From the IMG/VR virus record IMGVR_UViG_3300007520_000027, positions 1-49,842 of that record: a stretch of 49,842 nt of DNA; one strand, written 5' to 3'. Under the pieces are notes generated by a model. It worked only from the letters and a program-made list of their open reading frames with translations, made no database searches and was not told the origin of the DNA. A program made the position numbers and the translations under genes. Source of the DNA: a virus. Of this stretch, positions 30,653-48,148 are shown in pieces. Positions within the stretch are counted from its first letter, which is position 1. Each line of letters starts with the position of its first letter.

Positions 30653-33360
30653 ACGATTTCCAATATCTCTTTCTTATCTTCTTTTTTACACTTATAATTT
30701 TCCCAACCATTATTATTTTCAACCATTGACATAAACATATCAACACAATCATTCTTTGTAAAACTTCCTCTTTGTCCACCTGCGTTATTTATATATCCAC
30801 AATTTAAAGATTTAAGTGTGTTTTGTTTAAAATATGAATTTTTTAAACTTGGTTGTTTTATAATATTATCAATGCACCAATCGACAAATAAATGATTTGA
30901 ATCATAGTTCATATCTGGTATTTGTTTTGGCGGAATAATAATATTAGGAACAGACTTGTCCCATGTATTATTTCTATCTATAATATCGATAGAATCTATG
31001 GCTTTTTCAAAAATATTTGCCGATCTTTGTAAAGAATAATTATCTCTAGCGTCACGAAAAACGCTTTCTGACATATCTGCAATTTCTTGTGGTTTTATCT
31101 TTAAGAAGTCATATGCTTTGTCACAAAGATCCTCGTTGTCTGGAAGAACTCTCATCTGTTCTGTTTCTATAACAGATTCGTAAAAAATTCTTTGTACTTT
31201 TATAGGCCAACATCCGTATACATTATTAACTTGTTCAGACATCGCACTATAATCTACAGCCATAGCCGGAATACCACAAGCCTTAGCTTCTGCTATCGGC
31301 ATAGAAAGTCCTTCACAAATTGAATATTGCACGTATAAATCAGCACAATTATATACTTCGCACAACTGATCTTGTGTTACTCCGTGATTAGTGTTTGGCA
31401 TATGAGCAGATAGATTTCCACAATGCTTACATCTAGATATTTCTCCTTCGAATCTAGAGACATAAAAATTGCTACAATTTCTACATACATATGTGCATAA
31501 AACTCTATGAGATATTTTGTTTCTTAGAATATGGCTGGACAAGTCAAATCCAACATCTGGATAAGAAGTATGGATATGCAAATAAACATCATCTTTATAC
31601 TTAACGTGATTTTTATTTAATTTATCTAAAAGTAATTTAAAAGAATCCATCAAGTCTGGATATAGCTTTCTTTTCTGATTACGCATTACAGAAAGTATTA
31701 CTTTGGAATCTCTTGGAATTCCAAGCTTTTCTTTTAATTCTTGTTTTCTATTAAGCGGCTTAAACACAGTTGGATCTACAGCGGGCCTAACTATGTCAAA
31801 TACCTTAATGTCTGGAGCTTGCTTTGCAAGTAATTTCTTTCCATATTCTGTATATGTCAAAAGAATATCTGTTTCTCTATAATCCGATATCCATTCTGGT
31901 TTTTGTGGTTCTCCATCTATAGTAGGCATACAGATGTACTTAAAATATTTCCTAAAAGGAGATTTGAGTTGAAACGAGGAACAATTATGAACAATAAAAT
32001 TTGTAACAAATGTATTATTGTCTTCTACTTCTAGATTGTATACTATCTTTTCAGCCTTATATTTTTTAATCCATCTAACGGTCATTGCTAGATGATTATT
32101 TATAAATCTTCTAGACTTAGATAGCCTGGAGACCGTTCCTTCGCAAAATAGCTCATGCCATTTATCAAAATCTGCTTTTGCTATGCTAATTATAAATCTG
32201 TCGTATGTCTTTTCTTCAATCTTTGTTTTCGATTGAGAAATAGAGCATTCTATTCCAAGCTTAATTAATAATATCCATGTTTGTCTTGCTAATTGTTCAG
32301 AAACAGTATAATATCTACCTCTTTTGGTATCAGAATTTGAACATCCGTCTCCATTGATCAATCCTTGTAAAAATTTACATAATTGATCTTTTGGTAAATC
32401 CATTATCCATTCTGGAATATATTTGCCATCAGCGTATTCTCCAAACCATTCAAGTAATTGACTAGCTATAATTTTAGATCCGATTCTTCTAGTTCTGCCT
32501 TCTCCATATTTTCCATCAACTCTACATTTATGAATAACTAAATTTTTATCTAATTCTAGAAAACTAGGAAGAACTTTATCTTCTACTAGTTTTAATTCTT
32601 TTGAATTACAAGAAATTTGTATTCCATCTTTCTTGTCTTTATGTTTCAAATAACATCCTTCTGCTACAAAAAATCCTAAAGAATATAGTAATTCATCAGA
32701 GTGTTCAGATACTTTATCTTTAAATTCTGGAATAGGAAAAAATACTTTCCCGGTTTTTTTAATTTCATTAGCAGGAACCCAATTTTCTTTAGGATTAAGA
32801 TACCACTGATGTTGGGACATATAAAGAACAGGATGTTCTGATGTCATTTCTGTCTCAAATCCCATTTTCAATGTTTTTATTTTTATAAAATCTTGATTAT
32901 GTATTCTATTCCCAGTCCTTATTACTTTTTTAGCTTCTCCAGTAATAGTTATAACGCTATCTCCTTCTTTGACTAATTGGATATTTTTAAATTTTCCATC
33001 GGACATTAAGACTGGAGTATCTTTAGAAAAACACATCCATTGGTCCCGTATGTCTATCAAGATATCAGGCTTAAAATCTAATAGGACATACTCTAACAAT
33101 GTTTTGCCAAACTGCCCATGTACGTCATTAGCATATTTTTGAAATAACTCTGACGACTTTTCAGGAATAGTAGAATAGTATTTCCATGGAAATCTTTTCA
33201 TTCTTGGGTCGTTTTCTGTAACATAGCTAGCATATTCTGCAATTTCATATTTGCCACTATTATATAAATGATTAATAACATGTCTAGATATACCAGAAAA
33301 TCCTGTGTTTAAACAAGATGCTTCGCTACAAAATAATATTCTTTTTTTAACCTTAGTCAT
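30649..33360 (-). CDS. Large GT4-type glycosyltransferase with intein and zinc ribbon
   Basis: The gene encodes 903 residues; without the intein (110-459) it is 553. The N-extein shows ILFCSEASCLNTGFSGISR and ILIDIRDQWM. The C-extein has the typical GT-B linker and donor domain: VFDIVRPAVDPTVFKP, KVILSVMRNQKRK and YSICEGLSMPIAEAKACG, with a proper EX7E (E683, E691). Inserted in the donor domain is a four-Cys zinc ribbon, C626, C629, C644 and C647 (YVCRNCSNF and SRCKHCGNL). About 190 further residues follow the donor domain, and the protein is well above the family's usual length. It overlaps the next gene by ATGA. The substrate is unknown. Confidence 0.9.
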   Translation of the reverse strand: MTKVKKRILFCSEASCLNTGFSGISRHVINHLYNSGKYEIAEYASYVTENDPRMKRFPWKYYSTIPEKSSELFQKYANDVHGQFGKTLLEYVLLDFKPDILIDIRDQWMCFSKDTPVLMSDGKFKNIQLVKEGDSVITITGEAKKVIRTGNRIHNQDFIKIKTLKMGFETEMTSEHPVLYMSQHQWYLNPKENWVPANEIKKTGKVFFPIPEFKDKVSEHSDELLYSLGFFVAEGCYLKHKDKKDGIQISCNSKELKLVEDKVLPSFLELDKNLVIHKCRVDGKYGEGRTRRIGSKIIASQLLEWFGEYADGKYIPEWIMDLPKDQLCKFLQGLINGDGCSNSDTKRGRYYTVSEQLARQTWILLIKLGIECSISQSKTKIEEKTYDRFIISIAKADFDKWHELFCEGTVSRLSKSRRFINNHLAMTVRWIKKYKAEKIVYNLEVEDNNTFVTNFIVHNCSSFQLKSPFRKYFKYICMPTIDGEPQKPEWISDYRETDILLTYTEYGKKLLAKQAPDIKVFDIVRPAVDPTVFKPLNRKQELKEKLGIPRDSKVILSVMRNQKRKLYPDLMDSFKLLLDKLNKNHVKYKDDVYLHIHTSYPDVGFDLSSHILRNKISHRVLCTYVCRNCSNFYVSRFEGEISRCKHCGNLSAHMPNTNHGVTQDQLCEVYNCADLYVQYSICEGLSMPIAEAKACGIPAMAVDYSAMSEQVNNVYGCWPIKVQRIFYESVIETEQMRVLPDNEDLCDKAYDFLKIKPQEIADMSESVFRDARDNYSLQRSANIFEKAIDSIDIIDRNNTWDKSVPNIIIPPKQIPDMNYDSNHLFVDWCIDNIIKQPSLKNSYFKQNTLKSLNCGYINNAGGQRGSFTKNDCVDMFMSMVENNNGWENYKCKKEDKKEILEIV
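31984..33033 (-). mobile_element. Intein in the large glycosyltransferase (350 aa)
   Basis: Residues 110-459. It starts CFSKDTPVLMSDGK (block A), has TSEH at 173-176 (block B), LAGLIDADG-type motifs YSLGFFVAEG (226-235) and FLQGLINGDG (330-339), block F VYNLEVEDNNTFVTN, and ends FIVHN before Cys 460. All splicing residues are present. It is as long as its neighbour's intein but inserted at a different site (DQWM-CSSF). Confidence 0.95.
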
Positions 33361-33917: not shown

Positions 33918-34126
33918 TATATCTTCTCTATTGTTATGTTTAATTTAACTACTGATAAGTTATCTAAATCTAGTATATTCTTAAGCTTATTACAAACAGC
34001 TTGTGCTGTTTTTTGAAACATATAAATTCTGCAATGTTGTATGTTGTTAGTCCACTTTACTTTATAATAATTTTGTTTTTTAAAATACTGATTATCTTTA
34101 TTAATTATTGCATATAGATAATTCAT
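33917..34126 (-). CDS. Small paralogous protein A, flanks adenine MTase (69 aa)
   Basis: I chose the ATG at 34126 over the upstream GTG at 34150; the gene overlaps the end of the methyltransferase gene by 26 bases. It reads MNYLYAIINKDNQYFKK, then NYYKVKWTN and TAQAVCNKLKN. A second gene on the other side of the methyltransferase (34825-35025) has the same sequence plan: VIINKHNKYYQ, HYKRTDWTE and RAKSICEQLEK. They are clearly paralogues with no known family; the shape (two strands, a Trp, then a helix) might be a small DNA- or protein-binding domain. No function is proposed. Confidence 0.6.
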   Translation of the reverse strand: MNYLYAIINKDNQYFKKQNYYKVKWTNNIQHCRIYMFQKTAQAVCNKLKNILDLDNLSVVKLNITIEKI

Positions 34127-34823
34127 TGATTCTTTTGAGTCCAATCTCACAAAATTCCTTTTCTTTCTCTATGCAAATATAGTCTCTATTAGTATTAAGA
34201 CACGCTAATGCAGTCGTACAACTTCCAGAACAATTATCTAAAACAATATCGTGTTCATTAGTATATGTTTTAATTAAATATTCAAATAATTTCAATGGTT
34301 TTTGTGTTGGATGCAACTTTTCTTTATCATACTTAAATTTTAAAACCGTTTTAGGATATCTTAGTCCATTGTTTATAGTTGTAACCTTTTTTTGTTCTCT
34401 ATAATTACTAGTTCCAACTCCGCTTGTACAAGAATAAGGTGTTCCTTCGGTAAATTGAGGATTGTATGTTGGTTGTTTGTTATAAAAAACCAATATAGAC
34501 TCATGATTTCTCAATGGTTGTTTTTTTGCATTTAAAAATCCCGTGCCTTGTTGTTTTTCCCATATCCATTCATATTTAAATTGCTTAGGATTACTCATCA
34601 CTAGAAACGAAGTAAATGGCTGAACAGATGTTAAAACAACTGCACCATTCTCTTTTATAATTCTGTTATATTGTTCCCATAATTTTTCTATAGGAATTAT
34701 TGAATCCCAAGAATTTCGACTAGTTATCCCGTATGGCAAATCCGAAAGTATCATGTTTATAGACTTATCTTTGATATCTTTCATAACTTCTAGACAATCA
34801 TTATTAATTATACTATTTTTCAT
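34101..34823 (-). CDS. DNA N6-adenine (or N4-cytosine) methyltransferase
   Basis: The 240-residue protein has SDLPYGITSRNSWD (motif IV, DLPY, residues 27-40), LHPTQKPLKLFEYLI and, near the C-terminus, IVLDNCSGSCTTALAC (motif I), so motif IV precedes motif I: the beta-type order of small N6-adenine or N4-cytosine methyltransferases. It transfers a methyl group from SAM to an exocyclic amine in DNA. The motif TxxLxPTQKP is common in phage orphan methylases. No partner endonuclease is visible, so it probably protects the phage genome from host restriction or regulates replication. Recognition specificity cannot be read from the sequence. Confidence 0.85.
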   Translation of the reverse strand: MKNSIINNDCLEVMKDIKDKSINMILSDLPYGITSRNSWDSIIPIEKLWEQYNRIIKENGAVVLTSVQPFTSFLVMSNPKQFKYEWIWEKQQGTGFLNAKKQPLRNHESILVFYNKQPTYNPQFTEGTPYSCTSGVGTSNYREQKKVTTINNGLRYPKTVLKFKYDKEKLHPTQKPLKLFEYLIKTYTNEHDIVLDNCSGSCTTALACLNTNRDYICIEKEKEFCEIGLKRINELSICNN

Positions 34824-34824
34824 A

Positions 34825-35025
34825 TTAAATTTTTATAACTTTCATATTCATGTTTTTACAATCATCCCACTTCTCTAATTGTTCACAGATGCTTTTAGCT
34901 CTTGTTTTACAGTTAAATGCTCTTGCTAAATATTTGTCTTCTGTCCAATCGGTTCTTTTGTAATGAGCATTTTGATAATATTTATTATGTTTGTTAATAA
35001 TAACAAATCGTTCTTCTGATGACAT
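34825..35025 (-). CDS. Small paralogous protein B, flanks adenine MTase (66 aa)
   Basis: The ATG at 35025 overlaps the cytosine methyltransferase stop as TAATG, which decides this start over a TTG at 35052. It is a paralogue of the 33917-34126 gene: VIINKHNKYYQNAHYKRTDW against AIINKDNQYFKKQNYYKVKW, and TRAKSICEQLE against KTAQAVCNKLK. It is one of a pair that encloses the adenine methyltransferase gene. The function is unknown. Confidence 0.65.
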   Translation of the reverse strand: MSSEERFVIINKHNKYYQNAHYKRTDWTEDKYLARAFNCKTRAKSICEQLEKWDDCKNMNMKVIKI

Positions 35026-35978
35026 TATTTGATTCCAATTATTTCCATGCAAGACTCTATAAAAACTGATGCCAATTGTGGAATTATAGCATTTCCATAT
35101 GCTTTGATTCTTATTTTATTAGCAACTAGTGAATAATCTTCATCTATTTTTGTATCTTGATTATTGATTGACACCATTCTTTCGGAAACCCCATTAACCA
35201 CCGGGGCAAGGCCGGATTTAATCCTTCTTCTTCTTCCGTCTCTGCAATAGACTGTTCCGAAATCGCTCCAAACGCTTGTCTTGGTAATTGATCCAATCTC
35301 ATCCTGACTGATCCGTCTTTGTTTATCGACGACACTGCCATCCCCGGCGTATCCTTCCAATCCCTGCTCGATGGAGTCGTCCATCCCACAAGAACCTCTC
35401 CTATGTACCCTCCTGTTCGATTGGTTGCAATCCTGGATGGTCGTAGCTTCTTTCGATGTATTACATCCATTGTATTGGGAGTGGGCCAGCCAGTAAAGTC
35501 TTTGTCTGATGTGCGGCGAACCGATGCTCGCACCGCACAAATCTGCTCCTGCCCTATTATAGGCCAATACTTCCAAGTCAGAGAATACTCCAGAGAGCCA
35601 TAATCTGCCATCTTTTGAAGCAACTTGCTCTCCAATAACGACTGAAGGCTTTCTTTCTTTGATAAGTCTGTGCATTTCGGGCCACAAATTTCGTCCATCT
35701 TCATTTCCCTTTTTTTGGCCAGCTATAGAATATGGTTGGCACGGACAAGAACCAGTCCATACTTCTCTGTCAATAGGCCAGTTTGCTATATTGAGTGCCA
35801 ATGCCCATCCTGCAATTCCAGAAAAGAAATGACAATGCTTATAGCTCTTGATATCATTTCCTGTTACTTCTTTAATACTTCTTGTATCGATATCCCCATC
35901 TGGTATTAGTTTGTCCTCTATTAATTGTTTTAACCAAAGACAGACATCTGGATCTATTTCGTTATAATATACTTTCAT
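35025..35978 (-). CDS. DNA cytosine-5 methyltransferase (Dcm-type)
   Basis: The 317-residue product shows FFSGIAGW (51-58, motif I, SAM), GSCPCQPYSIAGQ (77-89, motif IV with C80 as the attacking Cys), VIGEQVAS (114-121, motif VI with EQV instead of ENV), HIRQRLYWLA (156-165, motif VIII) and AYGNAIIPQ near the end (motif X). It makes 5-methylcytosine. Motif II/III-like text (NEIDP, GDIDTRSI) precedes motif I rather than following it. The middle is dual-coding with a conserved +1 frame (see 35144-35698), which raises the local G+C. No companion endonuclease is seen; genome protection is likely. Confidence 0.88.
   Translation of the reverse strand: MKVYYNEIDPDVCLWLKQLIEDKLIPDGDIDTRSIKEVTGNDIKSYKHCHFFSGIAGWALALNIANWPIDREVWTGSCPCQPYSIAGQKKGNEDGRNLWPEMHRLIKERKPSVVIGEQVASKDGRLWLSGVFSDLEVLAYNRAGADLCGASIGSPHIRQRLYWLAHSQYNGCNTSKEATTIQDCNQSNRRVHRRGSCGMDDSIEQGLEGYAGDGSVVDKQRRISQDEIGSITKTSVWSDFGTVYCRDGRRRRIKSGLAPVVNGVSERMVSINNQDTKIDEDYSLVANKIRIKAYGNAIIPQLASVFIESCMEIIGIK
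35144..35698 (-). CDS. Overlapping +1-frame ORF inside the cytosine methyltransferase (184 aa)
   Basis: A second frame is open for 185 codons inside the methyltransferase gene. It has its own motifs: SLQSLLESKLLQKMADYGS, EYSLTWKYW, GWPTPNTMDV, GWTTPSSRDWKDTPGMAV and LNPALPRWLMGFPKEWC. I know GWPTP...LNPA.SRWLMG as recurrent phage wording, often annotated as a methylase fragment. The ATG at 35698 sits eight bases after AAAGGG, a plausible ribosome binding site. The region is much richer in G+C than its surroundings, as expected if two frames constrain it. It could be a separate small protein or an alternative C-terminus. Expression is unproven. Confidence 0.5.
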   Translation of the reverse strand: MDEICGPKCTDLSKKESLQSLLESKLLQKMADYGSLEYSLTWKYWPIIGQEQICAVRASVRRTSDKDFTGWPTPNTMDVIHRKKLRPSRIATNRTGGYIGEVLVGWTTPSSRDWKDTPGMAVSSINKDGSVRMRLDQLPRQAFGAISEQSIAETEEEEGLNPALPRWLMGFPKEWCQSIIKIQK

Positions 35979-35980
35979 GA

Positions 35981-36208
35981 TTAATCGTTATAGACTAACG
36001 CTTCTCCCTTTGGAGCGAGTTTGAAAAAATTCAATTCTGTAGATTGTGTAATATAGTTATTTTTAAGAAGAAACTCTTCTAGTTGATTATATTGATCTAT
36101 TGTTAAATTAGAAGCATCCATTGATTCTAAATAAATATCTGTTGGTTTATTAGGTTGAAAACTAAAGGCTTGATACAACACTCTTCTTATAAATTCTATT
36201 GGAAACAT
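35981..36208 (-). CDS. Small hypothetical protein (75 aa)
   Basis: The ATG at 36208 has AGGA seven to ten bases before it. A polar 75-residue protein with helix-turn-helix-like spacing (residues 34-75: NLTIDQYNQLEEFLLKNNY then LAPKGEALVYND) and no Cys. Such folds occur in small regulators, but no family was recognised. It sits between the cytosine methyltransferase and the DnaE C-terminal gene and has a normal ribosome binding site, so it is probably real. Confidence 0.55.
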   Translation of the reverse strand: MFPIEFIRRVLYQAFSFQPNKPTDIYLESMDASNLTIDQYNQLEEFLLKNNYITQSTELNFFKLAPKGEALVYND

Positions 36209-36238
36209 AATTTATTCCTATTACATTTTTATTAACAA

Positions 36239-38218
36239 TTATACTATCTTAACATCGTTACAAACATACTGCGTTGTATTTTTCCATTCACTTTTCTTAA
36301 TATATATAGTAATAACCGATCCTTCGTTTAGAAAATCTTTTATTCTTTCGAACAAATGACTCCATACTAATATATTTTGAATTGCCGAAGAATTATCACT
36401 AACAGACAAAGATGCATACTTAGTGCCTGGATTCTTAGAATTCTTTCCAGATTCTCTTATTTTCACAGATTCTATTACTACATGTGTGCAATATGTAGCT
36501 TCTTTATCTGTCGATAATAAAATTTCCTTACAAGTCACTGCTCTATTGTCTATAGATAAAAAATCATCGACCTCAGAACAAGTTAAAGGCAATCCTAGAT
36601 ATAGTCTTTCCCAAATGCTTTTTTGTCTATTTGTATCAACAACATTTTCTTCTGTAACGTTTTTTATCTTAGCTTCTATTGTAGAAACTCTTTTCTTAAC
36701 ACACTTATTATCACTAATAATTAATTCTAAAGAAGTAATAAAGTCATTTGTTTTAAATGACTCAAAAAAGCTAGATGTTTCTTTTGGCGTCAAAGACTTA
36801 ATCAATGGACTAGAATTTTCGGTAGATTTATCTGTTTGTCCGTACAAAGCATGTATGCATCTAAGCATTAGTGTTCTTGATTGATTATAACAATCACAAG
36901 CACCAGCCTTGATTAAAGACTCGCATATATTTCTTTTTAGTATTTTTGAAGATATAATAAAATCTTTAAAAGTATTTAAAGAACTATTTGTTCCATAGAT
37001 TTTAGATAAAGCAGAGTCTCCGACTCCTCTAATATGAGACAGACCAAATAGAATCTTACTATTTTCAAGAATAGTAAAATTAGTATTTTTTTCCCTAACA
37101 TCTGGTGGACATACAAGTATATCGTTAATTCTAGCGTCTTGTACTAAATTATATATTTCTTCTTTGGGATTAGGTTTATTATTAGAATGAGTTAACCAAG
37201 ACGTATAGAATTCTGTTGGATAATTTGCTTTTTGAAAAGCCGTTAGATATCCAGTGATAGCATATGATACAGAATGGCTATTTTGTGTCACTATTCCATT
37301 TGCATAATATAAATGATCTTCACTGTCTACTTCTATATTATATGTAATCTCTGGATCTCTCATTTGAGCATATAGTATTATGTCTTTTTTCATTCCATAA
37401 GTATATAACGAAGAAGGAATGGTCAATGATGTAGATTTATTTTGTAAAAAACTTGATATTGGTCTAATTATATTATCAGTAAAAAGAAACTTATGACCAA
37501 GTGTACATTTGATAGTTTTGCCTGATTCCAATGTAATCTCAACTATATCCTGCACACCATTAATCATCTTGTCTTTAATTTTAATAAAGGTGTCTCTATT
37601 ATTTTTAATATCTGGAGCCTTGATTAAATCTCCTATTTTTATATCTTCTAAAAATTTAAATCCATCAATTGTTTCTATTAATGTATCTCCAGTTAGACAT
37701 TTGTTAAACTGGTAGCGTTGTGCTTTTTCTAACCAAGAGAAAATCTCTTCCGCTGTTTCTACGCTTACTAAGTTTTTTTCTTTAGCCTTAGAGAGAAATA
37801 TTTTTTTACACTCTGCAATAACTTCTGGTAATTTTTTTCCAATTCCTTTTCTAATGTATTTATCAGATTCCACATCTGTGAATCCAGCTATCTCCATTCC
37901 AATCTTCATAGACTGTTCTTGATAAATCAAACAAGATTTTGTTTTTTCTAAAATTGGAATTAATGCGTCGCTAATATATTCTGGTTCCATCTCTCCATTT
38001 TTAATCTTAGCGTAATTATCTGTCATTTGGGCCTCAAGGCACGAAGGACGAATTAGTGCAATTAAATCAGATAGTTCATCAATAGAACGTGGCTTAATCT
38101 TTTTTGCCCAAGCTTGTCCTAATTGACTTTCTAATTGAAAGATACCAATGGTTCTTCCAGAACAAATTAAATCCCATGTTAACTTATCGTCTAATGGAAT
38201 ATTTTTAAAATTATACAT
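36239..38218 (-). CDS. dnaE: DNA polymerase III alpha (DnaE), C-terminal half, with mini-intein
   Basis: The gene encodes 659 residues, 519 after removal of the intein (174-313). It begins at NFKNIPLDDKLTWDLI, where the DnaE catalytic palm passes to the finger region; GIFQLES (25-31) and LIALIRPS are family C landmarks, IYQEQSM and the FNK-SHSVSYA step follow, and a helix-hairpin-helix region (GLSHIRGVGDSAL) precedes a C-terminal OB-like domain (VVIESVKIRES to YIKKSEW). With the partner gene at 38908-42156 it gives 1,214 residues, normal for DnaE. It is not a pseudogene: no frameshift or stop is seen. The halves must associate to polymerise. Confidence 0.9.
   Translation of the reverse strand: MYNFKNIPLDDKLTWDLICSGRTIGIFQLESQLGQAWAKKIKPRSIDELSDLIALIRPSCLEAQMTDNYAKIKNGEMEPEYISDALIPILEKTKSCLIYQEQSMKIGMEIAGFTDVESDKYIRKGIGKKLPEVIAECKKIFLSKAKEKNLVSVETAEEIFSWLEKAQRYQFNKCLTGDTLIETIDGFKFLEDIKIGDLIKAPDIKNNRDTFIKIKDKMINGVQDIVEITLESGKTIKCTLGHKFLFTDNIIRPISSFLQNKSTSLTIPSSLYTYGMKKDIILYAQMRDPEITYNIEVDSEDHLYYANGIVTQNSHSVSYAITGYLTAFQKANYPTEFYTSWLTHSNNKPNPKEEIYNLVQDARINDILVCPPDVREKNTNFTILENSKILFGLSHIRGVGDSALSKIYGTNSSLNTFKDFIISSKILKRNICESLIKAGACDCYNQSRTLMLRCIHALYGQTDKSTENSSPLIKSLTPKETSSFFESFKTNDFITSLELIISDNKCVKKRVSTIEAKIKNVTEENVVDTNRQKSIWERLYLGLPLTCSEVDDFLSIDNRAVTCKEILLSTDKEATYCTHVVIESVKIRESGKNSKNPGTKYASLSVSDNSSAIQNILVWSHLFERIKDFLNEGSVITIYIKKSEWKNTTQYVCNDVKIV
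37280..37699 (-). mobile_element. Mini-intein in the DnaE C-terminal half (140 aa)
   Basis: Residues 174-313: it begins CLTGDTLIETIDG, has TLGH at 239-242 (block B), ends ITYNIEVDSEDHLYYANG then IVTQN before Ser 314. No LAGLIDADG or HNH block is present, so it lacks the endonuclease. The penultimate residue is Gln instead of His. It interrupts FNK-SHS, three residues downstream of the cyanobacterial split-DnaE site. Confidence 0.93.
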
Positions 38219-38219
38219 A

Positions 38220-38900
38220 TCAAAACTCGTTAATTTCTATTAGCCCTTTTTTAGCTAATTCTAAATATCCTAATCTTTTGCCTTTTGAGTCTCTATAGAT
38301 TCTTTGCGTCTCTTTAAACCCACCAAAATGCCTGAATCTTTCTCCAACTTTATTATCAAGCATTTGGTTCATTAAATCATCGCCTACGATTGACCAATAA
38401 ATAGGAACTTCGTCAGTAGATAATACTAATAGTATTCTTGTCTCATTTTTTAAATACTTTTTTAAATCATCTAATTTAAATGTAAAACACTTTATAATTG
38501 GAGAAATTTTTAAATCTAATACATTTTTTATTCCATTGATATATATTGTAAAGTCAGAATTTTTAAAATCTTTATTTCCTTCTGCAATTGGCAATCCATT
38601 GTTATCAACACCAGAGTTGATTACGTCAATTACGTATCCATTTTTCTTTAAAGATTTTTTCCATTCTTGTATAATCATGCTTTCTCGTTCTGTTTTTTCA
38701 TAAACATATAAAAAGAAGTCAAAGAATCCTCTTTTTTCTTTCCTATATTTTAATCTATTTAAATCAGAAGGAGACAGTGTTTCGGGAATTTTATTATTTA
38801 GTATTTTATTAAATTTTTCTTTTAATATGTTTTTCTTATTGCTATTTTTATAAGCAATAATCATATCAAAGATTTCTTCATTTATTTTTTTATTTGTCAT
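38220..38900 (-). CDS. PD-(D/E)XK-like ORF lying between the two DnaE halves (226 aa)
   Basis: A basic, Lys/Asn/Ile-rich protein of 226 residues. Residues 105-131 read IAEGNKDFKNSDFTIYIN and NVLDLKIS, matching the spacing D..SDF...(strand)...D-L-K of PD-(D/E)XK nuclease cores (D116, D129, K131); a long N-terminal helical part (1-80) may bind DNA, and the C-terminal part has RFRHFGGFKETQRIYRD. It sits exactly in the break of dnaE, which is typical for a free-standing homing-type nuclease, but there is no LAGLIDADG, HNH or GIY-YIG. An unrelated accessory protein is possible. It abuts both DnaE genes. Confidence 0.45.
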   Translation of the reverse strand: MTNKKINEEIFDMIIAYKNSNKKNILKEKFNKILNNKIPETLSPSDLNRLKYRKEKRGFFDFFLYVYEKTERESMIIQEWKKSLKKNGYVIDVINSGVDNNGLPIAEGNKDFKNSDFTIYINGIKNVLDLKISPIIKCFTFKLDDLKKYLKNETRILLVLSTDEVPIYWSIVGDDLMNQMLDNKVGERFRHFGGFKETQRIYRDSKGKRLGYLELAKKGLIEINEF

Positions 38901-38907
38901 GTTGTGT

Positions 38908-41900
38908 TTATTTTATTGATCCATTTACTAAATCCTGAACAAGTTTTAACTTATCTAAAACTGAAACTCCAAGTATATCAAGCTTAACTCCTCCACAAGT
39001 AGCTACGTCCTTATAGTCAATCCCAATAACTCTTTCTTTTGTTTTAGTATCATAAGACATGGGAAAACAAGTGCTTACATCGTTTTCAGTCACAATTACA
39101 CCAGAAGGATGCTTTCCTTTTCCTCTTTGTTTTCCTTCTAATTTCATAGCGTCTTCAAAAATACTCTTATATTCATCTTGTTTGTAATAATCGCTAATTT
39201 CTTTATTATTATCAATCGCCCATTGTAATATTCCGTAATCTTCTAAGCCAGAGTCTTTTGCTTCTTGGATTTCATCAGCAATCTCTGCCTCATTAGGGAT
39301 AAATTTGGATAAGCTATTGGCTATTTCAAATCCACCAACAATCCCTTTGACTCTAAACACATCTTTTATTGCTGCTCGTCCTTGAATTCTTTGGAATGTA
39401 ATGATTTGACTAACTTTAGAATCACCGTATTTCCACTTAAGATATTCTATTACCCATTCTCTTCCTTCTGTTGCAAAGTCAACATCGATATCTGGCATTT
39501 CTACGTTGTCTTTGGTATTTCTTGCTGTATTATAAAATCTAGCAAATAACAAATCGTATTTTAATGGATCGGACAATATATCAGTAATACCTATTAGTGC
39601 AGACACCAAACAGCCTGCCGCACTGTTGTGAACAGCGTTCCAATTTGCTATGTAAGACTTATCATCTTCTACTTCTAAGTCATAAACATATCCATTGTAA
39701 CTATGGTATTTTTTATCTTTTACTAAGTCCAAAAAATGATTATTTATTCTGTAATGTTGATTTCTAGTATTTTTGTGTTTTGAAAAACAAAAAAGTTTTG
39801 GGAAAAGTTTATTCCAAATGATTAATTGTTTTCCTGATATTCTCAAAGTTAATTCGTCTTTGTGATTTTCTTGTTGTCTCTTGTATCTGCATACGTTGGT
39901 ATATATCCCCATTTTTAATAAAATAAATTTAATTTGATTGATTAAGTCATATGAACACGTTGAGTATGACACTCTTTCTCCTAAAATACATCCGTCTCCA
40001 GAAAATAATCCATAGATTAATCCTTCTTCAAATCCAAAGTTATTAATATTAAATATATGGTCATTAATTTTCTTAAAATTAGCAAGATTATTACCAAAAA
40101 AAGAAAACATTCTAGATATTAACTTATCATATAAAAACAACTGACAAGAATTTTTAGTTTTATGATATATTTCTGTTGTTTTAATTTTAAAAATATCAAA
40201 TATTATTCTAGATATTTCTTCTCTATATTGAATTTCATTTTTATGAAAACAAAATCCTGTTGTGCTAGATCTGGCATATCCTTCGGATATATAAAAACCA
40301 ATTATAACTCCGAGATCCCTATTCGCTTCAATATATCGAGGATATTTTTTCTTTTTTAGACTTCCATTATAAAGATATATATTATTGTCGTCCCACTTAT
40401 ATATCCATTGAGTATTTTGATCATTGACTGAGTTTAAATCACATATTTTCACTAGATCTAATTTATCTATTAATGTCCCATTAGGAATTGACATAGATAC
40501 AAAAGTTTTATTTTTAGTAGATAGATTGCCATTTTTAATTGATTTTGAAAAACTATCAGCTTTTTTGAATTCAATTCCATTAAAAATCTCATGATCTTTT
40601 GTACAAAACAAGGATCTATTTGCTATTGTTAGTTCTACGATTTCCTCGTTACATTGATATTTATGAACAGAATTAATTTTTTTTGTATTTCCAAGATGAG
40701 TAATAACAAGATCTCCTGTTTTGCAATCTTGTATTTTTTTTATAACGCCATTGTGCATTAAAATCTCAGTATCGGGCAAAAAACAACCACGGCCTATTCC
40801 AATGGGAATTGGATCTAATTCTCCATTACTCTTTAAATTTTGCTTCCAATCAAAAGAATGGTCTTTTGGTCTAGCTTGTGCCGCCATGCAATAATCCCAA
40901 ACAACAAGAAAATATGGTGCAAGACCAGCTTCTGATATAACAGCCATTTCGTGCTTTAGTCTTTCCCAATATTCTTCTTTGTTAATTCCAGATGTTTCCC
41001 ATGGTTTATATTTTTTAGCACCTTCTATAGCAATTGTAAATAAATAGTTATCTTCTATTATCTTAGATGTTGATACTGTGTATTTCACATCTTTTGGATC
41101 TATTTCTATAGTTGGAAGCATGGGTTTTCTAGAAATCTCATATGCTTCAATTGATTCTGCAATATTATTTGTTAGACTAAGCTCTTCTTTAGTAAATTTT
41201 TTAGACATTTCTTCAAAAGAATGCATATAAAAATTATCGCTTCCAAAGAATACCATAATGTCATCAGAATCTTTGTCAAACATTTGAGAAACTGTTTCTT
41301 CTGTTTCTCTCATGTTAATCATGACCATTGTTCTTTGGTGCTGTGCATCTTCTGGATTCGCGTAATGCGGATCACTACTAGCAATAGCTGGTATTCCAGT
41401 TTTCTTAGAAACTTGTCTTAAACAATCTACGATTAATGGTTGAATCCACAAAGGAAGCTTGTCTGATTCTTTTAATTCATTCTGCAATTCTATAAAGAAA
41501 TTACCTTTGCCAAACATTTTTTGAAACGACAAAGCTAATTCAGATGCTTTTTCTAACCAATCTTCTCTTAAAAATTTCTTATAAAAATCAAGATCTTTTT
41601 CTTTATATTGTGCATATGCTAATCTAATGTCTGCTTTTTTCTTTATTGGATCATCAGAAAATATATCACTAAACAATATGTCGGACAGATGAGAACCTTG
41701 GTGTCCACTAAATCCCATGATATTGCCATCAAGAAAATGTTCTAATCCATAAAACTCTTTCTTGTCTTCTTCTCGAACCGAATTATATAAACTTATTCTA
41801 GGCTTATAATAATAAATCTCTGGATCATTAGTGTGACTGACTAGATCATTTAAAGTTTTCCATCCAACTTTATTTTTCGCCCATATAACCATGTGCGAAT

Positions 41901-42156
41901 TTTGCTTATTAGTAACATCTTTGATATGAGCATCTTTGTGAACAACATAAAGCTCAATTCCAAGAATTGGCTTTACTCCTGCTTTTTTACAAGCAGAATG
42001 ATGCTGTATGTGAGAATATGTATTGCCGTGATTCGAAATACCCAAAGACTTCATTCCTAGTTCTTTTGCTCTTTTGGCATTCTCTTTTGGAGAGGAATAT
42101 CCATCTAGGATCGAGTATGAGTCATGGCAATGGAATAAGGTATAATAATTATTCAT
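38908..42156 (-). CDS. dnaE: DNA polymerase III alpha (DnaE), N-terminal half, with intein
   Basis: The gene encodes 1,082 residues, 695 without the intein (458-844). A PHP domain occupies residues 1-270 with HCHDSYSILDG (H9, H11), SNHGNTYS (here Asn in place of the usual Asp) and SDPHYANPED. It is followed by the palm, with GIGRG-SAAGCLVSALIGITD joined across the intein and PDIDVDF (888-894) carrying D889, D891 and D893. It ends LDILGVSVLDKLKLVQDLV, and the C-terminal half continues from there in a separate gene (36239-38218). This is the catalytic core of a replicative family C polymerase; the beta clamp partner is not in the window. Confidence 0.93.
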   Translation of the reverse strand: MNNYYTLFHCHDSYSILDGYSSPKENAKRAKELGMKSLGISNHGNTYSHIQHHSACKKAGVKPILGIELYVVHKDAHIKDVTNKQNSHMVIWAKNKVGWKTLNDLVSHTNDPEIYYYKPRISLYNSVREEDKKEFYGLEHFLDGNIMGFSGHQGSHLSDILFSDIFSDDPIKKKADIRLAYAQYKEKDLDFYKKFLREDWLEKASELALSFQKMFGKGNFFIELQNELKESDKLPLWIQPLIVDCLRQVSKKTGIPAIASSDPHYANPEDAQHQRTMVMINMRETEETVSQMFDKDSDDIMVFFGSDNFYMHSFEEMSKKFTKEELSLTNNIAESIEAYEISRKPMLPTIEIDPKDVKYTVSTSKIIEDNYLFTIAIEGAKKYKPWETSGINKEEYWERLKHEMAVISEAGLAPYFLVVWDYCMAAQARPKDHSFDWKQNLKSNGELDPIPIGIGRGCFLPDTEILMHNGVIKKIQDCKTGDLVITHLGNTKKINSVHKYQCNEEIVELTIANRSLFCTKDHEIFNGIEFKKADSFSKSIKNGNLSTKNKTFVSMSIPNGTLIDKLDLVKICDLNSVNDQNTQWIYKWDDNNIYLYNGSLKKKKYPRYIEANRDLGVIIGFYISEGYARSSTTGFCFHKNEIQYREEISRIIFDIFKIKTTEIYHKTKNSCQLFLYDKLISRMFSFFGNNLANFKKINDHIFNINNFGFEEGLIYGLFSGDGCILGERVSYSTCSYDLINQIKFILLKMGIYTNVCRYKRQQENHKDELTLRISGKQLIIWNKLFPKLFCFSKHKNTRNQHYRINNHFLDLVKDKKYHSYNGYVYDLEVEDDKSYIANWNAVHNSAAGCLVSALIGITDILSDPLKYDLLFARFYNTARNTKDNVEMPDIDVDFATEGREWVIEYLKWKYGDSKVSQIITFQRIQGRAAIKDVFRVKGIVGGFEIANSLSKFIPNEAEIADEIQEAKDSGLEDYGILQWAIDNNKEISDYYKQDEYKSIFEDAMKLEGKQRGKGKHPSGVIVTENDVSTCFPMSYDTKTKERVIGIDYKDVATCGGVKLDILGVSVLDKLKLVQDLVNGSIK
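39625..40785 (-). mobile_element. Intein in the DnaE N-terminal half (387 aa)
   Basis: Residues 458-844, inserted at GIGRG-SAAG. It starts CFLPDTEILMHNG, has TKDH at 519-522 (block B), LAGLIDADG-type motifs VIIGFYISEG (617-626) and LIYGLFSGDG (713-722), block F VYDLEVEDDKSYIAN, and ends WNAVHN before Ser 845. All splicing residues are present, with Ser as the +1 nucleophile. Confidence 0.95.
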
Positions 42157-42157
42157 T

Positions 42158-43093
42158 TTATCTTCTTTTAGATTTTGGATTTATAATCTTGAACTTATTT
42201 TCTAAAAATTGCATACCATCTTTTCCTAGTGATTCTTTTTCATCATAAAGCTCATCACAGAGATTAGTATTTTGTTTACTGAAATGACAAAATCTACATT
42301 TCCAACTTTCATTTCTAAAAGGGTCTTCGTTATTTTTAACTTCTTGAAATTTATTATAAATAATATCTTTGACTTCTTCAAGATCTTCGTCTGAAACAAT
42401 TGTCGAAACTGGACCACCATCGGTTGTGTAAATAAACGTTATTATAAAATGTTTAATATGTGGATACAAATGCTTCGCTGCCAAGTGATACATGCGTGGC
42501 TGTATGTCTTCTCTCAGCATGGCAGAATTTTTCTTTGTTTTATCATCAGACAAAAAAGAAGATCTAGATCCTGTTTTATAATCTATGATTTCTAAAGTAT
42601 CATCATCTATCTGATCAATCCTGTCAATAAAACCCTTAATTGCAAAATACTGTTGATCTTCTGATTGAGCAGCTTCTTTTGGCAGTCTAAATCTTTCTTC
42701 TTTGATCTCTAATTTAAAATACTGTTCTGCACAAAGAGTTTTTTCAGTAATAGGAGTATATCTATTGTACTTTCCAGTGATTAAATCATCCACTCCTCTT
42801 TTTATTTTTCTTGTTTTGTCTGCTTTAATTGTTTCAAAAATTTCTGGATTTTTATCTTTATAAAACTTAAGCCAGAGATCCCATTGTTTGTCTATGTCGA
42901 AATCATCTGATGATAGATCCTTCTTTTCGATAGATGCTATAGACATTGTTTCAAATACATCGTGACAGACTTGTCCTAATAGTGCTGCTCCTCCCGCTAT
43001 ATCTTCTATTCCAAGTGAATAAGAGAGAAACCATTTCCATTCACAATGATCATATGTGTTATAACTTGATGCTGATATGCCTTCGATTTTCAT
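42158..43093 (-). CDS. Cas4/RecB-like PD-(D/E)XK nuclease
   Basis: The 311-residue product has all parts of the RecB/Cas4 nuclease core: H44 (GQVCHDVFE), GFIDRID with D157, IDYKTG with D171 and K173, and QPRMYHLAA with Q198/Y202. Four cysteines, C17 (YDHCEWKWF), C266, C269 and C279 (WKCRFCHFS...NLC), would bind a 4Fe-4S cluster as in Cas4/AddB-type enzymes. It should be a DNA exonuclease that processes ends for recombination or replication. It is not next to cas genes, so a phage recombination role is likely. It starts two bases beyond the DnaE gene and three before dNMP kinase. Confidence 0.9.
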   Translation of the reverse strand: MKIEGISASSYNTYDHCEWKWFLSYSLGIEDIAGGAALLGQVCHDVFETMSIASIEKKDLSSDDFDIDKQWDLWLKFYKDKNPEIFETIKADKTRKIKRGVDDLITGKYNRYTPITEKTLCAEQYFKLEIKEERFRLPKEAAQSEDQQYFAIKGFIDRIDQIDDDTLEIIDYKTGSRSSFLSDDKTKKNSAMLREDIQPRMYHLAAKHLYPHIKHFIITFIYTTDGGPVSTIVSDEDLEEVKDIIYNKFQEVKNNEDPFRNESWKCRFCHFSKQNTNLCDELYDEKESLGKDGMQFLENKFKIINPKSKRR

Positions 43094-43872: not shown

Positions 43873-45008
43873 TTAGTGATCCTTTGAAAGCTTGGTAAGA
43901 AAATATCAGTCATCTCAAGAGAGGATAGCTCATCTATGTCTTTTCCTACTGGAATAAGATGGTTTATATTTATAATATCGAAATAATTTTGACAATTTCC
44001 AAAAAATTTCTCAGTTGCTAACAAACCTTTTTCGTCTGTGTCTAACATTAAGTAAACATTCTCTACTCCAATCTCTATCAGTTTTTTTATCTGATAGATG
44101 GAAATATCTAGTCCGAATAAGCATATAGCATTGTATATTTTATATTCATCTAAAAACCATATTTCCTTTGGGCCTTCTGTTATTACAACAGACTTTGTAT
44201 TTCGTATATATTCTTTAGCATTATTAAAATTATAAAGAACATTGCTTTTTTTAAATCCAAAGTGCTTCCATTTGGAATATCCTCTAATCATAGGATTGTC
44301 CTTGGGACATCCCTTATTAGGCTGGTGAAACCATGGACAATATGGGCATTTTTCGTATATGGTTCTTCCTGTTACTCCAATAACGTTTTTGTTATCTTCG
44401 TCTATAATTGGAGCAAATGATCTTAAGTGCATTGGCTTAGTAATGTCATTACAAAATCCTATATGAAACTTTTTTAATGTTTTTAATGAAAATCCTTTGT
44501 TAAGAAAATAATCACTAGTTTTCACATTTTTTTCTAATAATTTTAAATCAAATGGTTTAAAGTCTTCGTGTTCTTTAAATTTTAATTTATTATTAATAGA
44601 ATGCACTTGTTTTATACTGTTGTTTATCTTATGAAGCTCTGAATCTTCTAAGTTAATGGTTTCGTTTGAACTTATTCCTAATTTATTACAAAGCCACTCT
44701 ACTGATTCTATAAATGAATTTGACTCTTTAAAAACAACTGCTTTTACTAAGTCAATTATACTTGAGCCAAAATTATCGTGACACTTATGAGAATAACATC
44801 TCCATGTTCCGTATTTAGTATTAATAGAAAAAGATGTAGGATTATCTCCTCCGTGAACAGGACAAGAAAATCGTAGTTCATCATTGTTAACAATGCCATC
44901 GTCAATATCTATTCCTAATTCAGAAAGAACAAAATCAATATTTTCTATTGCTTTATTTTTTAAGTTTGATAAAAATAGATTGCTATAATTTTCATTTATT
45001 ATTTTCAT
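43860..45008 (-). CDS. dnaG: DnaG-type DNA primase
   Basis: The protein is 382 residues, shorter than cellular DnaG (about 600). A CHC2-type zinc finger is at residues 49-76 (C49, H52, C71, C76), and the TOPRIM core has VVITEGPKE (E278) and MLDTDEKG (D323, D325). Between them lies a second Cys/His set, C221, C224, H228 and C234 (EKCPYCPWFHQPNKGCPK), which is not a normal part of the family and may be a second zinc site. The C-terminal helicase-binding part is short. It makes RNA primers; dnaB lies immediately upstream, overlapping by 17 bases. Confidence 0.92.
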   Translation of the reverse strand: MKIINENYSNLFLSNLKNKAIENIDFVLSELGIDIDDGIVNNDELRFSCPVHGGDNPTSFSINTKYGTWRCYSHKCHDNFGSSIIDLVKAVVFKESNSFIESVEWLCNKLGISSNETINLEDSELHKINNSIKQVHSINNKLKFKEHEDFKPFDLKLLEKNVKTSDYFLNKGFSLKTLKKFHIGFCNDITKPMHLRSFAPIIDEDNKNVIGVTGRTIYEKCPYCPWFHQPNKGCPKDNPMIRGYSKWKHFGFKKSNVLYNFNNAKEYIRNTKSVVITEGPKEIWFLDEYKIYNAICLFGLDISIYQIKKLIEIGVENVYLMLDTDEKGLLATEKFFGNCQNYFDIININHLIPVGKDIDELSSLEMTDIFLPSFQRITKCQS

Positions 45009-47724
45009 CTGTTCGACTTTTTGCTTTAATTACATCGCTAAAAATCAATCCTTCTTTTATAAACCCGTTCGCAAAAGACTTGTCAACATAAGGATTAAGA
45101 GAAGCGTGTAGATTTATATAATCTGACTCAGATGACAATGCACTTCCGTGTCGACACGCTGCTATAAATAATTTTTTATTTCCAAACTCTGGTCCACATC
45201 CAAGCTGTGCGTCGTCATCAGTTTTATTCTTTAAAAAAGACATAGACGATGATAACCAAAGGATTCTATCAGATCCAGCCACTATTCCTGTGTCATTTCC
45301 GTCGATTCCGTCTCTATTCAACTGAACGTATCCAATTATAGGGACTTCGTACTTTACTGCAAAGTCATGCAAGCTTGTTAACATTAATCCCAATAGAATG
45401 TATTCGGGAGTTGCTTTGCTTAATCCTGATCCATCTGTTAGCTTAAAATAGTCATATATAATACAGCAATCGTTAGCTTTTCCAAATTCATTGAATCCAA
45501 CACATTTGACTATCCATTGTCTAATAATAGACATGGCTTCTGTGTAATTCATTCCAGAAATTGATCTATAATATAAAGGAAGATTTTCTAAGACTTTCTT
45601 ACTATCTCTTACTTTTTCAATCAAGCCCTTGTCTTTATTAAACTGACTGGTTTCCATCATTTTGATTGGACACTTAGACTCTATGCAGATCATTCTAGAT
45701 TTTTGATAATCTATTGTTAATTCTGTGTCTAGATACAAAGTAGGAACTTTGTTTTTACTAATATTTATTGCCTTATTCATAGCATCCCAGGATTTTCCAC
45801 AATTATGCGATATAATTCCATTAGTAACAAAAGAATGAGTTACTGGCATCTTGTAATCAAAAGTTTCTTCTTCAGAATCATCTATAGATTTTACCGTATC
45901 GAAAAAATAATGTTCGTCAAGAAGCATTTCTAATTTTTTATATACTGGCTCATCTTTCAAAATAATTAATGCTTCCAATACCATTCTTAGAGAATTTCTT
46001 TGTGGTCTTCGTGCTTTTCTAATCCATGCATCAAGTTGGCCAGATAAGGATATATCATATTTATATAATGAAAAACCACGCTTTATCATTTTATTTTTTA
46101 GTATTCTTAATAAATTATAAATATTAGGCAGGACATCATTCTTTTCAGATTGTTTTCTGTCAATAATATTGTTTAATAGTTCATTTTTATATGGTAACTT
46201 AAATCCGATTAAATCTCTAAATCTTTTTACTTCATTTATACCAAATATTCTTAGAACATAATATTTCTTTCTAATGTCTTTGTTTGGTATTTTTACCATT
46301 TTTTCTTTAATAGAACTTACAATACCAGAATTCATAAGAATCGCCTGAACCTGCGTGATCAATATCCTGCTTTTAGAACAAAAGCTTATAGTTTCTTTAT
46401 TTTCAATTCCGCCATCAGTATCAAAAAGACCACTTATGAATTTAAATATTTGTTCTTTTGAACATTTTCTAATGCTTTCTGGAATTATTTTGTTTCCATC
46501 TGGCAAATAAAAGAAGCTTCTATTAAACATTTTTCTAGATATATCTCCACATCCTCTTAGACAATATGTAGATGCATTATTGTTAAGCTTAGTCTCTTTG
46601 CTAATATAAGCTCCTTCAAATTTTGTATTATTTATGAAATAATCTCTGATAAAATCATCTTGTGTAGTTAGTTGTATACTATTATCTTTTCTAGCAATAT
46701 GACCATCTCCGCAAATCAATCCTGCTAAATATGGATCTATGTCTGAAGTGTTGTCTCCCCAGATATTATCTCCTCTTCTTAACACCAGGACATCTCCATG
46801 TTTGATATGTTCTGTATTTTTCCATTCCATAGAGCCATCTTCTGATAATATTCTAACAGGATGGTCTGGAGTGCATTGTATAGAAAAGCCATATTTGGTA
46901 GTTATTCTTTTATTTTTAGTTAATCCAGAATGAAACCACAAAGAAGGAAGCTCCATCTTTCCGTGAAGATTTAGAACAGAATATGGTGGATTGTTTTGAT
47001 CTTGTTTAGTAGGATGTAGTTCATAAGGCATTAAAATACCTTGGTCAGTGATAAGACATGTGTCCTTATATCCCACACATTTGCTTCTAGCTCCAATAAC
47101 AGAAATAGTTCCTTTTCTTGGTCCTCCGCCAATTGCATTGTCCCACTTGCTAAAACCAGTATCTATTCCTATTTGCACAACCGGTTCTTTGTTTATTAAC
47201 TCTTCAATCAGTCCATCCAGCCCCGCAGACATGCTATGCCATGCTTTTTCAGTATCTACTCCAGACAGATAGTCAACAACGATTCCTTCTGCCTTAGATA
47301 AGATATTACCAAGCGACTCAGAAGAGTCTACGTTCTCTAAATATTTTTTAGCATAATCATATTTTGAATATAATTCTCTGACTATGGACATTTTTTTTAC
47401 TCTAAAAGCCATTGCAGACAATGCTTCAAGAGACATTTCGATATCTTTCACTAGTTCAATATATTCTATTTCGGATTTCTTGCTTATTAAATTCTCATAT
47501 CCAAGCTGTTCTGCTTTGTTTTTGACTAACTCTATGTCAAAATTTTCTATGTTATCTATTTCATGATAGATCTCTGACATAGACTTAAATAATACTTGAT
47601 TAATTAATAAGGTAAAATCATTATGATCGACAATACCATCTATTTCAATAAAAGCATTTTTGCCACTTTTTAACAAAGATCCAATGACATTTCTTTCTGC
47701 TGAAATATCTTTAAAATTATTCAT
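44992..47724 (-). CDS. dnaB: Replicative DNA helicase DnaB with intein in the P-loop
   Basis: I chose the ATG at 47724 rather than the TTG two codons earlier. The 910 residues hold a DnaB N-terminal domain (ISAERNVIGSLLKSG), FSKWDNAIGGGPRKGTISVIGARSK, then the intein (216-641), then CGKSWDAMNKA completing the Walker A P-loop. Walker B is CCIIYDYFKL and IIGYVQLNRDG with AGSDRILWL follow. Without the intein it is 484 residues, normal for DnaB. It unwinds DNA at the fork and works with the DnaG gene next to it. Precise splicing is required for ATPase activity because the P-loop is broken. Confidence 0.94.
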   Translation of the reverse strand: MNNFKDISAERNVIGSLLKSGKNAFIEIDGIVDHNDFTLLINQVLFKSMSEIYHEIDNIENFDIELVKNKAEQLGYENLISKKSEIEYIELVKDIEMSLEALSAMAFRVKKMSIVRELYSKYDYAKKYLENVDSSESLGNILSKAEGIVVDYLSGVDTEKAWHSMSAGLDGLIEELINKEPVVQIGIDTGFSKWDNAIGGGPRKGTISVIGARSKCVGYKDTCLITDQGILMPYELHPTKQDQNNPPYSVLNLHGKMELPSLWFHSGLTKNKRITTKYGFSIQCTPDHPVRILSEDGSMEWKNTEHIKHGDVLVLRRGDNIWGDNTSDIDPYLAGLICGDGHIARKDNSIQLTTQDDFIRDYFINNTKFEGAYISKETKLNNNASTYCLRGCGDISRKMFNRSFFYLPDGNKIIPESIRKCSKEQIFKFISGLFDTDGGIENKETISFCSKSRILITQVQAILMNSGIVSSIKEKMVKIPNKDIRKKYYVLRIFGINEVKRFRDLIGFKLPYKNELLNNIIDRKQSEKNDVLPNIYNLLRILKNKMIKRGFSLYKYDISLSGQLDAWIRKARRPQRNSLRMVLEALIILKDEPVYKKLEMLLDEHYFFDTVKSIDDSEEETFDYKMPVTHSFVTNGIISHNCGKSWDAMNKAINISKNKVPTLYLDTELTIDYQKSRMICIESKCPIKMMETSQFNKDKGLIEKVRDSKKVLENLPLYYRSISGMNYTEAMSIIRQWIVKCVGFNEFGKANDCCIIYDYFKLTDGSGLSKATPEYILLGLMLTSLHDFAVKYEVPIIGYVQLNRDGIDGNDTGIVAGSDRILWLSSSMSFLKNKTDDDAQLGCGPEFGNKKLFIAACRHGSALSSESDYINLHASLNPYVDKSFANGFIKEGLIFSDVIKAKSRTDENNK
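45802..47079 (-). mobile_element. Intein in DnaB (426 aa)
   Basis: Residues 216-641, inserted between ARSK and CGKS. It starts CVGYKDTCLITDQG, has TPDH at 285-288 (block B), LAGLIDADG-type motifs YLAGLICGDG (332-341) and FISGLFDTDG (429-438), a further 150-residue helical region, and ends THSFVTNGIISHN before Cys 642. It is the longest of the five here, and all splicing residues are present. Confidence 0.95.
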
Positions 47725-48148
47725 TTGCAACGCTTAGCTTTCTGGGTTTCATATTGACTCTAAAGTCACCATTCGGATTATTTTCAATTGTGTGTAGATT
47801 ATTAGCTTCTGTGTTTCTTTTAACCAAGGTTCTTGGTCGTGCTACTTTTTTGTTAAACTGTTGTTCTTCTTCGTAAACTGGATCAGATACAAACTTAATT
47901 CCATTTACAACTTTTTCTATTATATCTTTGTCAGGTTTTTTACTTTTTTTAAGAACGCTAGTTTTCTTAGTTTTTTCAGACATTTTTTGTCTGATAGTTT
48001 CTAATTTAGAAAGTTTCTTTTCTGGGATCTTAATCTCTTCTCCTGAAATATTTTTATACGCAACGCATATTTTATTCCAGTCTTGAGATAAGACACCTTC
48101 TTTAATCAAAAGAAACGACTCTGCAATAGTATCCTCTTCAGTTCTCAT
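47717..48148 (-). CDS. Hypothetical protein next to dnaB (143 aa)
   Basis: A charged, Lys/Glu-rich protein starting MRTEEDTIAESFLLIKEGV. The N-terminal 35 residues (LLIKEGVLSQDWNKICVAYKNISGEEI) look like a compact helical domain, and the rest is basic and disordered-looking (KTKKTSVLKKSKKPDKD). It overlaps the start of dnaB by eight bases and the preceding gene by 11, so expression is coupled. I have seen this N-terminal pattern in phage replication clusters without a known function. A helicase-loader or DNA-binding role would fit position and charge but is inferred. Confidence 0.5.
   Translation of the reverse strand: MRTEEDTIAESFLLIKEGVLSQDWNKICVAYKNISGEEIKIPEKKLSKLETIRQKMSEKTKKTSVLKKSKKPDKDIIEKVVNGIKFVSDPVYEEEQQFNKKVARPRTLVKRNTEANNLHTIENNPNGDFRVNMKPRKLSVANE

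Follow-up and report, generated by a model that had tools for sequence, protein, structure and literature searches.

How does a virus build its replicase when the polymerase gene is interrupted? This question is raised by a virus record of the IMG/VR database, IMGVR_UViG_3300007520_000027, a single metagenomic contig of 49,842 bases that we call the window. On its minus strand DnaE, which in bacteria forms the catalytic subunit of the main replicase, is encoded by two genes with an open reading frame (ORF) of 226 codons between them. We propose that the two genes very probably encode an obligate two-chain family C polymerase, which assembles non-covalently and descends from a split at the linker between palm and fingers. 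What argues for this is the anatomy of the locus, the position of the break, its conservation and phylogeny, and the existence of relatives whose halves are unlinked.

Anatomy of the divided gene

The N half (38908-42156, minus strand) encodes a precursor of 1,082 amino acids (aa) with the PHP and palm domains. The C half (36239-38218, minus strand) encodes a precursor of 659 aa with the fingers, a helix-hairpin-helix (HHH) domain and a C-terminal OB-like region. Both contain an intein. In the N half it is a LAGLIDADG intein of 387 aa between GRG and SAAG (39625-40785, minus strand); in the C half it is a mini-intein of 140 aa between FNK and SHS (37280-37699, minus strand), without an endonuclease domain. 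The original prediction described two DnaE genes that are separated by a 226-codon ORF and amount to 695 + 519 = 1,214 residues, with no frameshift or stop in either half. All of this is correct: the sum is exact once both inteins are taken out, all three frames are open throughout and the halves have separate starts and stops.

The genes are tightly packed. Read along the minus strand, a PD-(D/E)XK exonuclease gene (42158-43093), the N half, the 226-aa ORF (38220-38900) and the C half follow one another with spacers of 1 to 7 nucleotides (nt). The stop of the N half is 7 nt from the 226-aa ORF, and the stop of that ORF is 1 nt from the ATG of the C half.

Judged by its palm aspartates (PDxDxD, KxD) and its domain content, the polymerase is assigned to family C. 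Pfam detects PHP, palm, fingers and HHH domains (PF02811, PF07733, PF17657, PF14579). The first two catalytic aspartates (39484-39492, minus strand) lie in the PDIDVDF motif of the N half. The third (38977-38979, minus strand) lies in VKLDILG, close to where the N half ends and shortly upstream of the break.

Aligned with solved DnaE structures (phmmer), the N half stops at about residue 574 of the E. coli protein, and 588 is where the C half takes over. Hence the break falls within the palm-fingers linker and the conserved parts are all kept. Two complete ORFs jointly cover the whole of DnaE, and there is no intein at the break. The chain ends quoted in the original prediction need a small correction: the N half reaches slightly further, to ...LVQDLVNGSIK before its stop, and the C half begins MYNFKNIPLDD.

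Conservation, phylogeny and unlinked halves

Single-protein scans of IMG/VR with the 226-aa ORF or the C half returned no relatives; profile queries were required. A C-half profile found at least 80 loci, and almost all of them share this split. Further scans, centred on the Rossellomorea phage phiT1 and on the closest relative of the window (L010), led to a set of 245 sequences. By their fingers sequence, these represent at least 117 distinct split loci and 46 unsplit loci. The 117 take in the window, Bacillus phage G and phiT1, which leaves at least 114 further IMG/VR loci. The scans were ranked by similarity and listed the best matches, so the counts are no estimate of prevalence.

Counted from the first residue of the KxD motif, N halves continue for another 18-46 residues. 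The fingers of C halves are preceded by a few residues or by a short extension, about 3-60 residues overall. In a large subset (L026, L089 and kin, also L019 and L028) the C half starts with an extension of about 30 residues that carries Cys-x-Cys (CGC or CKC) and is possibly metal-binding. The same arrangement occurs on a Halobacillus litoralis plasmid (NZ_CP129017; left off the tree), where 134 aa are encoded between the halves. Its C half is annotated as 'OB-fold nucleic acid binding domain-containing protein', and with halves misnamed in this way split replicases may be undercounted.

We placed palm plus fingers on a tree rooted with E. coli. The 44 lineages (at <80% identity, window included) that form one supported clade are all split; support is 100 by the Shimodaira-Hasegawa-like approximate likelihood ratio test (SH-aLRT), 100/100 with the E. 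coli root and 98/99 when the unlinked members are added. The 46 unsplit DnaEs fall outside, bar one neighbour of uncertain placement. Nearest to the clade are one split (L017) and one unsplit (L168) sequence. The window and L010 (57% identity) form a pair. Together with four lineages whose halves are unlinked they make up a subclade (97/93), which is sister (96/93) to lineages with a DnaQ-type exonuclease gene between the halves.

PhiT1, also split, branches outside the clade, which requires that this hinge changed two or more times; a single change is allowed in none of 200 bootstrap trees. Thus on this tree the DnaE of phiT1 split independently at the palm-fingers hinge, and L017 may represent a third event. 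The original prediction had suggested a tree with unsplit relatives, and such relatives do exist, outside a supported clade. Palm and fingers distances correlate about equally well in split (r 0.72) and unsplit (r 0.82) genes, a comparison that is not informative. Overall, the split looks like a stable inherited design, neither a broken gene nor an assembly mistake.

In the four unlinked lineages the distance between the N and C genes is about 5 kb (L028), 11 kb (L019), 12 kb (L014) and 14 kb (L120), and in L028 identified other genes occupy the space. Palm motifs are intact in all four, and each record has one fingers domain and one palm gene. Family A or B polymerases were not found in any of the records tested, these four included. 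Because the subclade of the window includes members with 5-14 kb between the halves, the two chains must act in trans. The N halves of L014, L019, L028 and L120 also have about 90-100 extra residues inserted in the palm ahead of PDIDxDI (read in L274, L273, L275 and L276).

For PHP, palm, fingers and DnaQ, the median ratios of nonsynonymous to synonymous substitutions (dN/dS) lie at 0.04-0.07 (approximate values, with high dS), which points to strongly purifying selection on the halves. The first two catalytic aspartates are invariant in all 113 split rows in which the column is filled, the third in 115 of 115. About 67 of the 115 rows, among them the window and L010, keep their PHP ligands, which are degenerate in others. 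The functional two-subunit polymerase of the original prediction is thus supported by comparison: by the clade-wide split, the kept catalytic residues, purifying selection, unlinked halves and a search that found no other DNA polymerase in the records tested.

We envisage the following scenario. The break would have arisen in the common ancestor of a large phage clade, within the flexible linker that joins palm and fingers. In the window, each chain would splice out its own intein in cis. Chain 1 (PHP, palm and the three catalytic aspartates) and chain 2 (fingers, HHH and OB-like region) would then join non-covalently over the palm-fingers interface and restore a normal DnaE active site. Later the gap would have been filled by a DnaQ-type exonuclease in most lineages and by mobile nucleases in the window and others. 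The halves of certain lineages would have drifted kilobases apart.

The gap between the halves

A DnaQ-type exonuclease gene of about 225-235 aa fills the gap in 111 of the 114 further loci. Three members match PF00929 (RNase_T) with E values of 6e-9 to 7e-12, and the DEDDh residues D10, E12, D121, H189 and D194 are invariant in all 12 aligned sequences. Most of 84 measured loci show a DnaQ stop that overlaps the ATG of the C half by 1-23 nt, which suggests translational coupling. Scanning bacterial genomes with a DnaQ profile gave one true case, a 9.4 kb contig (L248) with DnaQ between N and C halves in a metagenome-assembled genome of Flavobacteriales. This contig is probably viral and at most a weak hint at the host. 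In a collection of 50,697 phage records nothing matched the gap DnaQ of L089, and the best matches listed for the C half of L016 reached about 32% identity or less. Hence the clade has no sequenced isolate in that phage collection.

Is co-translation of DnaQ with both halves, yielding a heterotrimeric proofreading core, the purpose of the split? This idea is compatible with a two-chain polymerase, and the presence of the gap gene in 111 of 114 loci, its retained catalytic residues and its overlap with the C half speak for it. However, the gap has no DnaQ in the window's subclade, and the RNase_T profile finds none anywhere in the window or L010 records. Hence the split does not require DnaQ, and we consider this purpose a possibility that falls short of an even chance. 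In L010 there is no gap gene at all; the halves abut and their ORFs overlap. Upstream of its N half lies a gene similar to the PD-(D/E)XK exonuclease gene of the window. These two viruses, in whose records no DnaQ was found, may rely on PHP or on host proofreading.

Equally tentative is a wider picture, a heterotrimeric DNA polymerase III core. Here alpha would be split at the hinge, and an epsilon-like exonuclease would be made between the halves and assemble with them. Family C polymerases would break repeatedly at this hinge, and the PHP site would be lost once DnaQ had been acquired. As for the order of events, L010 and the window's subclade favour a split that came first and a DnaQ that came later.

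Several points weigh against our scenario. Loss of DnaQ in the window's subclade fits the data equally well as late gain. Association and activity of the two chains are inferred from sequence comparison. Furthermore, every record of the clade comes from an uncultivated virus and may be incomplete, which leaves some chance that another intact replicase is encoded elsewhere.

What, then, is the 226-aa ORF? It belongs to no Pfam or PHROGs family. Its relatives are sporadic: one in the gap of L012, one adjoining the DnaE N half in L236 and one in another place in L266. D116 is invariant in all four sequences, which share D/E-x-K/Q at 130-132 (D130-x-K132 in the window). A model built from the shallow alignment of these four has an alpha-beta-beta-beta-alpha-beta topology that fits PD-(D/E)XK, at a predicted local distance difference test score (pLDDT) of only 60; the fold from the single sequence (pLDDT 38.5) is unusable. 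In fold searches PD-(D/E)XK nucleases occupy all the top ranks, with Hjc, PvuII and RecU first and I-Ssp6803I lower, at Foldseek E values of 2e-3 at best and Z below 8. Against BFVD they return mainly unnamed phage proteins and resolvases. Homology to the gap DnaQ was considered and rejected: the sizes are alike, but there is no blastp match and the fold differs. Certain gaps additionally carry HNH, endonuclease VII or LAGLIDADG genes, so the gap seems to attract mobile nucleases, and the 226-aa ORF, a PD-(D/E)XK-like nuclease by its predicted fold, probably belongs with them.

This ORF might itself have broken the DnaE gene by homing, much as the nrdA gene of phage Aeh1 was broken by mobE. 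The modelled fold, the relatives that adjoin DnaE genes (L012, L236) and the nuclease genes of other gaps all fit this idea. Yet it is improbable here, since L010, the DnaQ-bearing lineages and the lineages with unlinked halves are all split without that ORF, and the split thus predates it. With L010 split around an empty gap, the ORF most likely arrived after the split, although an earlier nuclease could have caused the original break. Here our analysis goes beyond the first reading of the locus: the 226-aa ORF did not cause the clade-wide split, and the usual gap gene is a DnaQ exonuclease.

Still less probable is a covalent link between the halves, made either by a split intein or through RNA (trans-)splicing. 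There are grounds for considering it. The window is rich in inteins, and the dnaE of phage G is broken up and has a GIY-YIG gene inside a sequence that, judged by eye, resembles a group I intron. Cyanobacterial DnaE (Ssp, Npu) is likewise a family C polymerase from two genes, and its split intein rejoins the chains covalently. However, the cyanobacterial break lies further downstream and within the split intein, whereas the window breaks between palm and fingers, free of inteins. Dassa et al. reportedly described, in 2009, genes fractured by split inteins with a homing endonuclease (cited in PMC10448857). These resemble our locus in having two half genes and a nuclease gene between them; they differ in being rejoined by trans-splicing, while the window break is not flanked by intein halves. 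The tail of 18-46 residues on N halves and the lead of about 3-60 on C halves are, taken together, too short for an intein, and intein profiles find neither of the parts expected at the break. Rfam finds no intron family in 35900-42500 at E values up to 1, and the gap is coding nearly to the base, which leaves an intron no space outside the ORFs. Splicing in cis is also hard to reconcile with kin whose halves are 5-14 kb apart.

That the polymerase is truly one gene, or dead, through assembly error, frameshift or pseudogene formation is barely credible: the window is a lone metagenomic contig, but the identical break recurs in at least 114 other contigs (more than 100 independent ones, beyond what chance would give), in phiT1 and in the Halobacillus plasmid, with separate starts and stops, a clade-wide dN/dS of about 0.05 and intact catalytic residues.

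Known split polymerases and neighbouring genes

Split phage polymerases are known for families A and B. In Aeromonas phages 25 and 44RR the T4-type family B polymerase is split into 43A and 43B, which in phage 25 co-purify and show polymerase activity (PMC2988022). As in the window, this phage replicase lies in two complete ORFs with no intein at the break, and the intervening sequence varies among relatives (a seg endonuclease gene or untranslated sequence). In contrast to our clade, it belongs to an unrelated polymerase family, concerns few phages and has no gap exonuclease gene described (PMC2988022). The OM43 phages MEP401 and MEP402 have a split family A polymerase, again two replicase ORFs with a small ORF between, conserved in most of their phage group; here the authors consider an intron possible (PMC10580990). 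For family C we found no report of a split phage polymerase in a literature search outside subscription papers and preprints. A natural two-chain DnaE, in a large clade and in phiT1, offers a handle on palm-fingers communication, fission tolerance and the recruitment of proofreading.

The dnaE of phage G (gp329/330/331/339) is similar in comprising several ORFs with a nuclease gene between. It differs in its break sites and in an interruption that is probably of intron type, and we rejected it as a precedent for the same break. In its record (L001, 8205-9404 and 9880-14851) dnaE is broken twice; the GIY-YIG gene sits in intron-like sequence, and the second gap spans about 5 kb and several genes.

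Three more genes of the window contain inteins or intein-like inserts (27502-29544, 30649-33360 and 44992-47730). Two encode glycosyltransferases (Pfam) and one a DnaB-like helicase (PHROGs) with an intein-like insert. Counting the two in DnaE, the window has about five inteins per 50 kb. The fingers gene of L010 (8001-10385) also has an intein, which runs from C to N between Y and CFNK, three residues upstream of the window site between FNK and SHS. We take this position to be the cyanobacterial DnaE intein site. Directly downstream of the DnaE C half, genes for an N6/N4-type and a C5-cytosine DNA methyltransferase (34101-34823 and 35025-35978) lie near each other.
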